Below, one piece after another: positions 53,309 to 62,925 of a stretch of 62,925 nucleotides of DNA. The stretch is from an uncultured Clostridia bacterium. GTDB lineage: Bacteria > Bacillota > Clostridia > Oscillospirales > JAAYOS01. The notes under the pieces are model-generated. The model ran no database searches. It saw only the letters and a list, made by a program, of their open reading frames with translations, and was not told the DNA's origin. Position 1 is the first letter of the stretch; each line of letters begins with the position of its first letter. Location of the stretch: contig CANRJS010000010.1 of NCBI GenBank assembly GCA_947631015.1, positions 1-62,925 of the forward strand. The letters are read 5' to 3'. The position numbers and the translations under genes were made by a program.

Positions 53309-53455
53309 ATTCTGTCCGTTCGGAGCCGCAGCAGGCGGGCAAAACAAAAAACCGGGCATTAACAAAAAATTCACAACGACTTAACTTTTTTCTCAAAAGT
53401 ATTGAGTATACTCTTTCTTGTAAACGGAAGAAACGTTTCGAAAGGAGCTTCAGAT

Positions 53456-55276
53456 ATGTTTGACGAAAGGGATTTTGACGAAAAGTTCACAGGCGGCGAG
53501 GAGAGAACGGAGAATCCCGAGACCTCCGAGAACGCGCGCACGGACGAGCCGGCTTCCCCGGCGGAGAACGTGACGAGCGAGGCGGCGAACGCCATGCCCG
53601 CTCAGGATGTGGACCGTCCGGCGGCCGGTGAGCCGCAGGAGCAGGCGCCGCACGTCGAGCCGTATCCGTTCGCGGCTGAGACCGCGATAAACAGCGAGGG
53701 AGTCGCGAGCAAGCCCGGATACCCGACCGGCAGGGACTACGAGCCGGTGCGTCCGGCCGTCCCGCAGCAGCCGACGCAGGAGAGCCCGAGACCGATGTTT
53801 AACGACCCCGCGCCGTCCTTCAACGCACAGCAGAGCTTCAATGCGGCGGCGGAGCAGGCTCCCGCGGGCAGCGGACGTCAGTACGCGCCCTACGGCGAAC
53901 AGCCCTATTCCGACGGCCGCTATGCCCCGCAGAACGTGAACAACGGCTATGAGCAGCCGTACTACTACGCCGCTCCGCCCGCTCAGAAGCCTCCGAAGAA
54001 GAAGCATAAGGCGCTCCGCCGCCTGATAGCGGCGCTGCTCGTGCTGACGGTGATAGGCGGCGCTGTCGGGACGTTTGCGATACTCTACGACGTGCACCCG
54101 AACGACGACGGCGGCATAACCATCTCCCGCAGGGGAAGCGGGAACGCGGAAAAGAACGACGGCGACTCCGATGTGTCCGTGTTCGCCTCGCCCGTGCCGG
54201 GCGGCTCGCAGGCTGTGGTATCGCCCAACCCCGCCGGCAACGGCGGCCCAGAGATGCAGATAAACGACAGCCCGGTCTCGCAGGTCGACTACGGCGACAC
54301 CGGCAAGGCGCTCACCAATCAGGAGATAGCCGCGAAGTGTACCCAGTGGACCGTCGGCGTCATAGCCACGAGCTACTACGAGAACAACTACTTCGGCTAC
54401 GGCGGAGCCGCAACCTCCACCGGCACCGGCATCATCATGAGCTCGGACGGATATATCATCACCAACTGCCACGTCGTTGACGGCGCGACCGACCTCTCGG
54501 TGCGTATGCTCAACGGTACGGAGTATGCGGCCACCCTCATAGGCATGGACGACCGCAGCGACCTCGCGGTGCTCAAGATAGACGCGACGGGTCTTCCGGC
54601 GGCCGAGTTCGGCGACTCGGACGCGCTGCTCGTCGGCGACCCGGTCATAGCGATAGGCAACCCGCTCGGCCTCGAACTGATGGGCACCGTCACCGACGGT
54701 ATCGTCTCGGCTATAAACCGTGACGTCGCGGTGGACGAGCGCACCATGACCCTCATCCAGACCAACGCCGCGATAAACGCCGGCAACTCCGGCGGCCCGC
54801 TGATAAACCAGTACGGTCAGGTCATAGGTATCAACACCCTCAAGATGCAGGACTATTCGACGACGGTCGAGGGACTGGGCTTTGCCATCCCGACGAACAC
54901 CGCCAAGGCGATAGTTGACGAGCTTATCGAGCACGGATACGTCTCCGGATATCCGGCAATCGGCCTCCGCTGCGACAACGTCAGCCAGTCGATGAGCGCT
55001 CGCTACTCGATACCGATAGGCGTGCTCGTGCGCTACGTCCACCCCGACTCGAACGCGTACCGCGCGGGGCTTCAGGTCAACGACGTCATAGTCGAGGCGC
55101 AGGGTGAGAAGGTCGAGAATTACAGCGACCTCTCCACTATCATGGACAGGTATCACGCCGGAGACTCCTTTGAGCTTAAGGTGTTCCATTACGACTCAAG
55201 GGCTTATGAGACGCTGCATTTCGTGCTCAACGACGAGAACGACCTGTCCGACGGGTCGGTAATAGCGGGGGACTAA
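53456..55276 (+). CDS. htrA: HtrA/DegP-type membrane-anchored serine protease with PDZ domain
   Basis: A 606-residue protein. A long disordered, Pro/Ala/Gln-rich cytoplasmic region (1-185) leads into KKKHK and one membrane helix (about 188-211), then a trypsin-like domain with H339 (TNCHVVDG), D369 (RSDLAVLKI) and S445 (GNSGGPL). A C-terminal PDZ domain has YRAGLQVNDVIVEAQGEKVE. It handles misfolded proteins at the cell surface. ATG 53456 is chosen, with AAAGGAGC before it; the frame is open to 53402 without a site. A palindrome GAGTATACTC (53404-53413) contains a likely -10 box TATACT. The stop adjoins repeat family B. Confidence 0.93.
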   Translation: MFDERDFDEKFTGGEERTENPETSENARTDEPASPAENVTSEAANAMPAQDVDRPAAGEPQEQAPHVEPYPFAAETAINSEGVASKPGYPTGRDYEPVRPAVPQQPTQESPRPMFNDPAPSFNAQQSFNAAAEQAPAGSGRQYAPYGEQPYSDGRYAPQNVNNGYEQPYYYAAPPAQKPPKKKHKALRRLIAALLVLTVIGGAVGTFAILYDVHPNDDGGITISRRGSGNAEKNDGDSDVSVFASPVPGGSQAVVSPNPAGNGGPEMQINDSPVSQVDYGDTGKALTNQEIAAKCTQWTVGVIATSYYENNYFGYGGAATSTGTGIIMSSDGYIITNCHVVDGATDLSVRMLNGTEYAATLIGMDDRSDLAVLKIDATGLPAAEFGDSDALLVGDPVIAIGNPLGLELMGTVTDGIVSAINRDVAVDERTMTLIQTNAAINAGNSGGPLINQYGQVIGINTLKMQDYSTTVEGLGFAIPTNTAKAIVDELIEHGYVSGYPAIGLRCDNVSQSMSARYSIPIGVLVRYVHPDSNAYRAGLQVNDVIVEAQGEKVENYSDLSTIMDRYHAGDSFELKVFHYDSRAYETLHFVLNDENDLSDGSVIAGD

Positions 55277-55308
55277 TGAGGGGCGAGCCCACGCCCGAGT
55301 GGGCAAAG

Positions 55309-56005
55309 CCCGCACCCGTATAGCGGGGAAGCCCCGCGAGCATTCGCGGGGCGAGACCCCGCGTCCCTAAGTGAGGCAGAGCCTCACCGGCACTTTGCGG
55401 GGATTGCATCCCCGCACCCCGCGTTACTTTTTGCTTGTGCAAAAAGTAACCAAAAAGCACACAAAGGGGAGAAAACCACGGTTTTCTCCCCTTTGTACCC
55501 CTCTTTCCTTTGACCGGAAAGTCTCTGCTACGCCATACATGAGTCCGTAGCTTAGTACAAGCGTCCACGCTCAAACTTTCCACTAGAACCGAAAGTTCAG
55601 ATTTCTCGGGAAAGCCTCTGCATTACGCTTATAGTGTGAGCGTAGGACCGGACTTTTTGTATCTACTACGCAGGAACTGTTCGATGTCGTCGAATAAAGT
55701 GGGAAAGTCGGATATTCTTTCCCCAGAAACTCACCCGGTCGGATGATGGATTTGTTTGATACAGAGTATCGTCCTGTTATGCGAGTTGCGGTTGTGTGTC
55801 GTATTCAGGAGAGAAATTTTTAAGGGAGAGGGCGAAGCCCTCTCCCTTAAGCGCGCTTTTTGGTTACTTTTTGCGCGAGCAAAAAGTAACGCAGGGGTGC
55901 GGGGGCAGCGCCCCTGCAAAGTGCCGGTGAGGCTCTGCCTCACTTAGGGACGCGGGGTTCCGCCCCGCGAATGCCTGCGGGGCTTCCCCGCTAGATGGGT
56001 GCGGG
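55309..56005. mobile_element. Family B inverted-repeat element with about 150-bp arms and a 396-bp core
   Basis: Left arm 55309-55458 and right arm 55855-56005 are inverted copies of one another with scattered differences. Each arm is itself a string of hairpins: GCGGGGAAGCCCCGC, a GCGGGG...CCCCGC pair, GTGAGGC-AGA-GCCTCAC, a C/G-rich pair, and GTTACTTTTTGC-(4)-GCAAAAAGTAAC (55423-55450 and 55863-55890). The core 55459-55854 carries a hairpin at each end (CAAAGGGGAGAAAACC and CTTAAGGGAGAGGGC types) and no convincing frame. It begins 32 bases past the htrA stop. It looks like a non-autonomous, MITE-like element, but no target duplication was identified. Confidence 0.6.
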
Positions 56006-56228
56006 GGCAGCGCCCCCACAAAGTGCCGGTGAGGCTCTGCCTCACTTAGGGACGCGGGGTCTCGCCCCGCGAATACTCGCGGGGCTTCCCCGCCATATGG
56101 GAGTGGGGCGCATGCCCCACATCTGCCTGTGAGGCTCAGCCTCACTTCGGGACGCGGGGTTCCGCCCCGCGAATGCCTGCGGGGCTTCCCCGCTAGATAG
56201 GTGCGGGGCTTGCCCCGGAAAGCGGTTG
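55927..56228 (-). repeat. Three tandem units of about 101 bp, family B
   Basis: Units start with GTGAGGCTCTGCCTCACTTA or near variants at 55927, 56029 and 56129 (spacing 102 and 100). Each holds four hairpins, among them GTGAGGC/GCCTCAC, GGACGCGGGG..CCCCGCG and GCGGGGCTTCCCCGC. The first unit is the right arm of the element at 55309-56005. The array ends 27 bases from the 3' end of tRNA-Ser. Confidence 0.8.
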
Positions 56229-56254
56229 CGGGCTTCGCCCGCAGACTGAAAAAC

Positions 56255-56342
56255 TGGCGGAGAAGGTAGGATTCGAACCCACGGATGCTCTCACATCGAC
56301 GGTTTTCAAGACCGCTCCCTTCGACCACTCGGGCACTTCTCC
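56255..56342 (-). tRNA. tRNA-Ser (anticodon TGA), CCA encoded
   Basis: Leftward cloverleaf with acceptor GGAGAAG/CTTCTCC, discriminator G and encoded CCA (56257-56255). The anticodon loop is CTTGAAA, the long variable arm runs GATGTGAGAGCATC, and the T loop is TTCGAAT. The 88-base length is normal for a class II tRNA. Confidence 0.95.
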
Positions 56343-56488: not shown

Positions 56489-56561
56489 AACGGAGCGCGT
56501 GACTGACGGAAGTGGAGCACCACATGGAGCGCGTGTCCTCGGCAGCCGACCGTCTGGGTGG
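56489..56561 (+). promoter_or_regulatory. ZTP/ZMP riboswitch (pfl motif)
   Basis: The leader shows the pfl consensus in order: GCGTGACTGACGGAAGTGGA, then GCACCACATGGAGCGCG, a variable linker, then GCCGACCGTCTGGGT, the strand that forms the pseudoknot. These riboswitches bind ZTP or ZMP (AICAR nucleotides), signs of folate shortage. They turn on one-carbon and purine genes. The next two genes use exactly that metabolite (ZMP). The 3' strand doubles as part of the terminator at 56550-56589. Confidence 0.88.
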
Positions 56562-56589
56562 AATCCTTCCGATACCCGGGCGGATTTTT
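56550..56589 (+). terminator. Riboswitch-controlled terminator
   Basis: CCGTCTGGGT (56550-56559) pairs with ACCCGGGCGG (56574-56583), allowing G-U pairs, and ATTTTT follows. The left strand is the conserved pseudoknot strand of the aptamer, so ligand binding should prevent this hairpin. Confidence 0.82.
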
Positions 56590-56614
56590 GCGTTTTATGG
56601 AAAAGGAGCGCTTT

Positions 56615-57328
56615 ATGCAGAAAAATGAGCAGTATCTTCGCGAAAACGCGTATCCCGGCCGGGGGATAGTCCTCGGCGCGACGCCCTCCGGCGCGGCGCT
56701 CGTTCAGGTCTACTGGATAATGGGCCGCAGCGAGAACAGCCGCAACCGCGTGTTTGTCGAGACGGAGGAGGGCGTCAAAACCGAAGCGTTCGACCCCTCC
56801 AAGATGATCGACCCGTCGCTTGTGATATACTACGTCACACGCACCGTTGGCGACAAGCACATCGTCACGAACGGCGACCAGACCGACACCGTCGCGGACT
56901 TTCTCAAAAAGGGAAGCACCTTCGAGGCGGCGCTTCTCACGCGCTGCTATGAGCCGGATGCGCCCAACTGCACCCCGCGCATCTCCGGCATGACCGACGC
57001 CGCGACCGGCGCGTACTCGCTCTCGATACTCAAAACCGTCGGAAATGACGAGAGCTGCGAGGAGAAGGCGTTTTTCACCTACAAGACGCCGATAAACGGC
57101 ACGGGTCACTGCATCCACACCTACGACGGGGACGGCAGCCCGCTTCCCAGCTTCTCCGGCGAGCCGTATGAGGTCTCGCTCTGCGAGACCGCGCGCGAAA
57201 ATGCCGAGAAGTTCTGGGACATGCTCGACCGCTCGAACCGCGTGAGCCTGCTCGTGAAGCATATCGACTGCGCCTCGGGCAAGGTCGAGACCGTCATAGT
57301 AAACCGCAACGGAGGAGAAGAAAAATGA
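56615..57328 (+). CDS. purO: IMP cyclohydrolase, PurO-like
   Basis: A 237-residue protein of the PurO/IMP-cyclohydrolase-like family known from archaea: YPGRGIVLGATPSGAALVQV, NRVFVETEEG, VTNGDQTDTVADFLKKGSTF and NCTPRISGMTD match the PurO pattern (NGSHTD, NTPRI). It closes the ring of FAICAR to give IMP, the last step of purine synthesis, which most bacteria do with the PurH N-terminal domain. ATG 56615 is chosen, with AAAAGGAGC before it. It overlaps the next gene by four bases (ATGA) and is controlled by the ZTP riboswitch. Confidence 0.85.
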   Translation: MQKNEQYLRENAYPGRGIVLGATPSGAALVQVYWIMGRSENSRNRVFVETEEGVKTEAFDPSKMIDPSLVIYYVTRTVGDKHIVTNGDQTDTVADFLKKGSTFEAALLTRCYEPDAPNCTPRISGMTDAATGAYSLSILKTVGNDESCEEKAFFTYKTPINGTGHCIHTYDGDGSPLPSFSGEPYEVSLCETARENAEKFWDMLDRSNRVSLLVKHIDCASGKVETVIVNRNGGEEK

Positions 57329-58506
57329 ACTCGATAGAGCTGAAGTACGGCTGCAATCCCAACCAGAAGCCCTCCCGCATATTTATGCGCGACGGCGGCA
57401 ACCTGCCGGTGAAGGTCCTCTCCGGCAAGCCCGGCTACATCAACTTCCTCGACGCGCTCAACGGCTACCAGCTCGTAAGCGAGCTGAAGGAGGCGACGGG
57501 ACTTCCCGCCGCGACCTCCTTCAAGCACGTCAGCCCCGCCGGCGCGGCGATAGGTCTCGAGCTCACGCCGAAGGAGCGGAAGGTCTGCCGCATAAAGAAG
57601 AGCGCGGAGCTTTCGCCCCTCGCCTGCGCCTACGCCCGAGCGCGCGGCGCCGACCGCATGAGCTCCTACGGCGACTTCGTGAGCCTCTCCGACGTCTGCG
57701 ACGTCGAGACCGCCCATCTGATAGCCGCCGAAGTGAGCGACGGCGTCATAGCCCCCGGCTACACCCCCGAGGCGCTCGAAATACTCAAGCAGAAGCGTCA
57801 GGGCGGCTACAACGTGATAGAAATAGACCCCGATTACCGCCCCGCCGAGCAGGAGTACAAGGACGTCTACGGCGTCACCTTCGAGCAGGGCCACAATAAC
57901 TACCGGCTCACAAATGAGGTTTTTGGCAACATCGTTTCTGACCGCAAGGACATACCCGAGAGCGCGAAGCGCGACCTCCTCATCGCGATGATAACCCTCA
58001 AGTACACGCAGTCGAACTCGGTCTGCTACGCCTACAACGGCATGGCGATAGGCATCGGCGCGGGTCAGCAGTCCCGCATACACTGCGTCCGTCTCGCAGG
58101 CGGGAAGGCGGACACCTTCTTCCTCCGCGGCTCGGACAAGGTGCTGAACCTGCCGTTCAAGAAGGGCCTCGCCCGTGCCGAGCGCGACAACGCGATAGAC
58201 GTCTACCTCACCGACGGCGACTGGGAGGCGATGCTTGAGAGCGACCTCTGGCAGGACTACTTCTCCGAGAAGCCGGAGCCCTTCACCGTCCCCGAGAAGC
58301 GCGAGTACCTTTCGCACATAGACGGCGTGAGCCTCGGTTCGGACGCGTTCTTCCCGTTCAGCGACAACATTGAGCGCGCGAAGCGCTCCGGCGTGCGCTA
58401 CGTCCTCGAGCCCGGCGGGTCGATACGCGACGACGCGGTCATCGACTGCTGCAACAAGTACGACATGGTGCTCGGGTTTACAGGGATGAGGCTGTTCCAC
58501 CACTAA
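57325..58506 (+). CDS. purH: Stand-alone AICAR formyltransferase (PurH C-terminal type)
   Basis: A 393-residue protein matching only the transformylase part of PurH: ELKYGCNPNQKP at the start, SFKHVSPAGAAIGLEL with catalytic K67 and H68, NSVCYAYNGMAIGIGAGQQS, and the closing VLEPGGSIRDDAVIDCCNKY. It formylates AICAR (ZMP) with 10-formyl-THF. The MGS-like cyclohydrolase domain of normal PurH is absent; PurO upstream replaces it. It is translationally coupled to purO. Four bases after its stop begins repeat copy A3. Confidence 0.93.
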   Translation: MNSIELKYGCNPNQKPSRIFMRDGGNLPVKVLSGKPGYINFLDALNGYQLVSELKEATGLPAATSFKHVSPAGAAIGLELTPKERKVCRIKKSAELSPLACAYARARGADRMSSYGDFVSLSDVCDVETAHLIAAEVSDGVIAPGYTPEALEILKQKRQGGYNVIEIDPDYRPAEQEYKDVYGVTFEQGHNNYRLTNEVFGNIVSDRKDIPESAKRDLLIAMITLKYTQSNSVCYAYNGMAIGIGAGQQSRIHCVRLAGGKADTFFLRGSDKVLNLPFKKGLARAERDNAIDVYLTDGDWEAMLESDLWQDYFSEKPEPFTVPEKREYLSHIDGVSLGSDAFFPFSDNIERAKRSGVRYVLEPGGSIRDDAVIDCCNKYDMVLGFTGMRLFHH

Positions 58507-62765: not shown

Positions 62766-62925
62766 GCAAATCTGCGGGCGAAGCCCGCCACCTTTTCACG
62801 GGGCAGGCCCCGCACCCGTGCAGCGAGGAAGCCCCGCGAGCATTCGCGGGGTAACCCCGCGTCCCTAAGTGAGGCAGAGCCTCACCGACACTTCGCGGGG
62901 GCGCTGCCCCCGCACCCCCGGCGGG
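62766..62925 (+). repeat. Family B palindromic repeat, copy running off the right edge
   Basis: Beginning just past the acetyltransferase stop, it contains GCGGGCGAAGCCCGC, a GGGGCAGGCCCC hairpin, GAAGCCCCGCGAGCATTCGC, GCGTCCCTAAGTGAGGCAGA and GCCTCACCGACACTTCGCGG. These come in the same order as at 55309-55420. It continues beyond the window. Confidence 0.8.

Follow-up and report, generated by a model that had tools for sequence, protein, structure and literature searches.

An htrA-like gene and a tRNA-Ser gene in the genome of an uncultured Clostridia bacterium point their 3' ends at a gap that holds inverted, hairpin-rich arms, and the question raised by this locus is what the gap contains. 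In the window, that is, the whole stretch of 62,925 nucleotides analysed here, an earlier note had picked out positions 55309-56005 as inverted arms around a gene-free core, offering a non-autonomous mobile element or a structured RNA locus as possible readings. The observation is confirmed but proved too narrow, and the interpretation is partly supported. Our best explanation, advanced with moderate confidence, is a genus-specific family of non-autonomous, terminator-replacing cassettes, within which cores pass from locus to locus, the same way round or flipped, by way of the homologous inverted arms.

Layout of the element in the window

One composite element fills the gap from the htrA-like stop codon (55276) to the tRNA-Ser gene (from 56255). 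Its parts and neighbours are as follows.

55279-56240, no strand: whole element, outer limits approximate
55321-55419, minus strand: left arm, one hairpin-string unit (U) of about 102 bp, 89% to U, inverted relative to the right arm
55423-55450, no strand: left palindrome H, GTTACTTTTTGC-TTGT-GCAAAAAGTAAC
55459-55498, minus strand: left terminator-like hairpin, facing outward, tail GCTTTTTGGT; A-T/T-A and A-T/G-C exchanges keep the stem
55499-55818, plus strand: non-coding core interior of about 320 bp, best conserved at about 55621-55690
55819-55851, plus strand: right terminator-like hairpin, facing outward, tail CGCGCTTTTT
55863-55890, no strand: right palindrome H
55895-55996, plus strand: right arm, unit U1
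55997-56098, plus strand: right arm, unit U2, 91%
56097-56198, plus strand: right arm, unit U3, 81% over 102 nt and 96% over 56124-56198
53402-55276, plus strand: left neighbour, an HtrA-type protease (Pfam Trypsin_2 and PDZ), 3' end at the element
56255-56342, minus strand: right neighbour, tRNA-Ser (tga), 3' end at the element
62822-62917, minus strand: further U unit at the contig end, probably of another element that is cut off

The plan is that of one to several 102-bp hairpin units, H, an outward terminator, about 320 bp of non-coding DNA, a second outward terminator, H and again one to several units, with the left set of units inverted. A terminator scan identified two strong outward hairpins with T tracts that enclose the core (55819-55851 on the plus strand and 55498-55459 on the minus strand), and the same scan found no promoter-like site in the element. 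The inverted arms are real: 55309-55402 is 93% complementary to 55912-56005 over 94 nt, a second inverted pair (55417-55472 and 55841-55896) is 86% complementary over 56 nt, and the paired GTTACTTTTTGC/GCAAAAAGTAAC hairpins are present in both copies of H. What did not hold is the right end placed at 56005, as the arm consists of three direct 102-bp units that start at 55895, 55997 and 56097. A module break lies within the core interior, near 55695-55712.

The absence of a gene from the core is borne out. In the window copy every one of the six frames is interrupted by stops, codon positions vary alike, with no codon-phase signal across 60 copies, and indels break the frame, so that a protein in the core was rejected. 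Some core copies read through in one frame, for up to 136 codons; the longest open stretches of the core copies have a median of 98 codons, which falls within the range of simulated sequence (median 71, 95th percentile 110).

A family of structured non-coding RNA genes, whose transcripts would come from the core and finish at one or other terminator, is in our judgement distinctly unlikely. The interior does fold moderately better than shuffled sequence, more so on the minus strand (mean z of -1.8 on the plus and -2.7 on the minus strand in 20 of the 60 copies; minus-strand consensus fold of -17.3 against -6.7, sd 3.1, for shuffled columns, again from 20 of the 60), and the central block at about 55621-55690 is strongly conserved. 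Against an RNA gene, kept two-sided changes occur in only 2 of 42 predicted interior pairs on the minus strand and 2 of 45 on the plus strand (24 of the 60 copies), the top covarying columns are mostly local allele blocks and not helices, no promoter-like site was found, and one and the same locus holds cores in both orientations. By eye in the alignment, and uncounted, a strong GCGGGGAAG/CTTCCCCGC stem with two-sided changes is seen in one haplotype of module A. In the terminal hairpins, all 60 copies preserve the pairs of the right terminator stem, the sole variation being one G-T, and across the 60 copies the left hairpin still pairs where A-T has given way to T-A or to G-C. It is for the terminal hairpins alone that the alignments lend support to RNA structure, and the proposal of a structured RNA fared weakly, clear compensatory changes being confined to the left of these hairpins.

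An Rfam search at a permissive threshold returned no gathering-score match on the element, and the same analysis of eight loci from other species gave no match on their elements. The Rfam matches that exceed the gathering score, tRNA and a ZTP riboswitch, are outside the element. In the stretch 56489-58506, this ZMP/ZTP riboswitch (RF01750) lies just upstream of an IMP cyclohydrolase-like gene and an AICARFT-like gene, so that the final steps of purine synthesis are split between two genes.

Copies in the genus and the sites they occupy

The core is not unique to this locus. Searched against the 1.89-Mb genome from which it comes (G000), the 697-bp stretch gives 226 matches, which cannot be put down to chance, and the cassette occurs there as about thirty near-copies between genes. 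A profile search located 36 core pieces in the fetched loci of this genome, 22 of them full length, some of the pieces at contig ends possibly being two halves of one copy. Matches are found in four of the 59 genomes searched (the window's own and relatives), all of the window's genus: G000, G001, G002 and G004, with 21 of the 25 core places counted in G004 falling within the fetched regions. G003, of the same genus, has no match to the core family, which is therefore present in three of the four other genomes of the genus. Where arms are detected they point outward on both sides whatever the direction of the core, and H lies between arm and core in most copies; in one copy of G002 (L109) the right half is inverted. 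Incomplete forms recur, broken near positions 242-262 of the model, and a short form without about model positions 245-315 stands at six fetched loci of G002, two of which hold full-length copies in another species.

Copies favour the 3' ends of genes, above all those of convergent pairs. By codon-usage gene calling, 39 of 69 elements lie between convergent genes, whereas of 451 adjacent gene pairs that have no element between them 36 are convergent. Orthologous sites are counted once per genome, so that P values for this preference overstate independence. Among background pairs more than 100 bp apart, 18 of 156 are convergent. The 69 are the elements flanked by a called gene on both sides, with coreless clusters of units set aside, and 30 of them are not between convergent genes; tRNAs are invisible to the caller, and the window element was scored as tandem though it is convergent with tRNA-Ser. 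This caller was chosen after the result of a cruder longest-ORF caller, used first, had been seen; the latter counted antisense frames as genes and gave a weak preference (22 of 68, against 135 of 561). Given the two outward hairpins, transcripts from either flanking gene may run through the core and end at the hairpin on its other side, and if they did so from both sides the cassette would act as a two-way terminator.

At some sites the cassette occupies the place that an ordinary terminator hairpin takes in the relatives. Such a hairpin was seen at three of four empty sites, all of which lie inside contigs. G001 has one at the site filled in G000 and G002 (L013:7046-7789), and G004 has one at a site filled in G002 that adjoins the same htrA end as in the window (L101). 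At a third site, filled in G000 (L024), G001, G002 and G004 share a short terminator hairpin, with about 125 bp between the flanks compared with about 770. At the fourth (L068:15039-15911 of G001; L068/L091), G004 has a few bases compared with about 900, and no hairpin. No target duplication was seen at any of the four. The proposal of a non-autonomous mobile element therefore stands as to the dispersed repeat family and the empty sites in related species, and falls short as to the classical signature, since a target duplication, a coding core and a transposase of the Y1 or IS110 type were all missing.

The existence of empty sites speaks for a miniature transposable element mobilised in trans, with a transposase that recognises the ends (H and the terminator hairpin), and with clustering and flips produced by repeated re-insertion at preferred terminator sites. 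We hold this to be unlikely, given the missing target duplications, and given that by-eye reading of the frames of L197, L270 and L202, pairs with longer spacing, revealed no transposase and that PF01797 and PF02371, the two families searched, are absent from all five genomes of the genus. An autonomous element sharing the cassette ends was not found among the fetched loci. As movers, transposases of the RAYT/IS200 type (Y1) and of the IS110 type were considered, and none is present in the five genomes. Terminators or palindromes are also the insertion sites of group IIC introns and IS110 elements, which are not known to leave a clear target duplication; unlike these, the cassette has no Rfam intron match, no IS110-type gene and no reading frame. 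For the terminator-replacing cassette that we favour, a new site would be gained when the cassette takes the place of a short sequence, in many cases a terminator hairpin, with no duplication left.

At a further site (L019), G001 carries a 4.4-kb insert (L123:2243-6670) instead of the element, which is present in three other species; the insert, of restriction-modification type, encodes a C5 DNA methylase together with a BsaWI-type endonuclease. Separately, L019:9888-9991 of G000 is a lone U unit without a core, with a full element nearby in G004, and is possibly a remnant after core loss. A second hairpin-string family, with GCGCCGGTTCGCGCGGTTGAAGT, was noticed at L117:1-330 and at about 6300-6650 of L123, where G000 carries the present element.

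Cores at shared sites

Cores at orthologous sites are 84.8% identical (16 full-length pairs at 12 loci). Non-orthologous copies from the two species of a pair reach 84.7%, and paralogs in one genome 88.9%; in only two of the 16 orthologous pairs is the identity above the paralog mean. Five of these pairs, at five of the 12 loci, have cores that face opposite ways when the flanks are aligned. In a tree of 60 cores the grouping is for the most part by species, though not without exceptions: the core in the window clusters with copies of G004. Incomplete copies that share a site mostly resemble full copies at least as much as they resemble one another.

These observations are most simply accounted for by core exchange through gene conversion via the inverted arms. 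The homologous inverted arms would permit ectopic homologous recombination or gene conversion, by which a core may be copied from locus to locus in either orientation; such copying would produce both the homogenised cores within a genome and the flips. Crossing-over between copies could in addition lead to synteny breaks, and the site of the element in the window is one, as other sequence adjoins tRNA-Ser in G001 and G004. The main rival to exchange is repeated re-insertion, and it counts against the exchange reading that independent re-insertion at preferred sites would give clustering by species and flips too.

All five genomes of the genus are draft assemblies, and some flips or mosaic cores could therefore be assembly errors. 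That the flips and the missing locus-specific similarity are as a whole artefacts of short-read assembly through repeats is, in our estimate, very improbable. By-eye counting places element sequence at 21 of the 86 contig ends of the window's genome, in keeping with such artefacts, and the window contig itself ends inside the arm of another copy (62822-62917). However, copies within one genome differ by about 10%, far above assembly error, incomplete forms and copy positions are common to separately assembled genomes, and the empty sites, as noted, sit inside contigs.

Ends with other cores, and known repeats

G003 possesses a multicopy core family of its own; in its 690-bp element, similarity to G000, G001 and G004 (86-98%) is limited to roughly the first 44 bp. 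Of 197 genomes sampled from the order, five contain the exact end pattern, and these five belong to the window's genus. A scan of genome contigs for the end pattern gave at least 115 stretches, many in MAGs named Oscillospiraceae and others in Bacteroidota and Pseudomonas. In the Oscillospiraceae MAGs the similarity extends beyond the searched pattern into the terminator hairpin, as judged from an alignment of ten hand-chosen end sequences from other loci and the two window ends, and one locus (L164) shows a complete element that follows the cassette plan around a different core. Among the matches listed, one core family of these MAGs unites 33 sequences, and 36 of 117 ends have an inverted partner match at 120-3000 bp, most ends not being seen paired.

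Similar ends joined to unrelated cores, in G003 and in the MAGs named Oscillospiraceae, suggest that a trans-acting factor may read the ends, and the constancy of the end motif while cores differ favours the miniature element mobilised in trans. It is also conceivable, if doubtful, that the cassettes represent previously undescribed mobile DNA, defined by the ends alone (H, CCAAAAA and an outward terminator hairpin), which would carry interchangeable non-coding cores, replace terminators and have its cores copied either way. As a separate observation, three loci (L212, L229 and L250, the first two being Pseudomonas contigs) have pairs of the H end motif in opposite orientation, about 190 bp apart, beside chains of other palindromes.

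The genus-specific, terminator-replacing family that we favour can be compared with several known repeats. Passages of PMC3049150 describe the pneumococcal repeats SPRITE (Rho-independent-terminator-like), BOX and RUP as over-represented between convergent genes and typically shorter than 200 bp, with 15 SPRITEs between convergent genes and 15 upstream of a gene, and BOX as modular. By the description given there, the cassette resembles SPRITE in being dispersed and non-coding, in its terminator-like hairpin with a T tract and in its preference for convergent genes. It differs from all three in having two opposed terminators around an interior of about 320 bp, in its inverted multi-hairpin arms and in belonging to another lineage, and is further set apart by the measured lack of locus-specific similarity and by the flips. 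With the bacterial MITEs, as characterised in part of PMC3049150, it shares the absence of genes, terminal inverted repeats, many copies and empty sites; unlike them, it has no target duplication, a variable number of units in its arms, and arms that are GC-rich.

That the cassettes are REP/REPIN elements spread by a RAYT transposase is hardly credible. The likeness is one of position and form, in that REP, BIME and REPIN sequences, as portrayed in PMC3733652 and PMC3116915, are likewise dispersed intergenic palindromes in many copies, arranged as inverted pairs and located near gene 3' ends. In contrast, the cassette is much longer and has a long conserved core, and no RAYT was found: Y1_Tnp (PF01797) is present in none of the five genomes of the genus, in a search whose control was positive in 5 of 14 known genomes. 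A REP/REPIN is a palindrome of 20-40 bp tagged by GTAG or CGTC, and by their length the 102-bp units of the cassette, each with several hairpins, do not fit.

We place the cassette family among the dispersed intergenic repeats, as a new variant which, by analogy, would work most like the terminator-like SPRITE and is in position like the REPs. Full-text literature, mostly outside subscription journals, was searched for repeats, the motif and REPIN/RAYT, and no description of this cassette family was found there. Copies of the element explain many of the contig breaks in the assembly of the window's genome. The usual view of a terminator is as a fixed component of one gene. In this case, a terminator-like pair seems to have turned into a dispersed repeat, which replaces ordinary terminators elsewhere, evolves in concert and marks at least one point of rearrangement. 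If confirmed, the family would provide a natural system for the spread of gene-less non-coding DNA and for the insulation of convergent genes.
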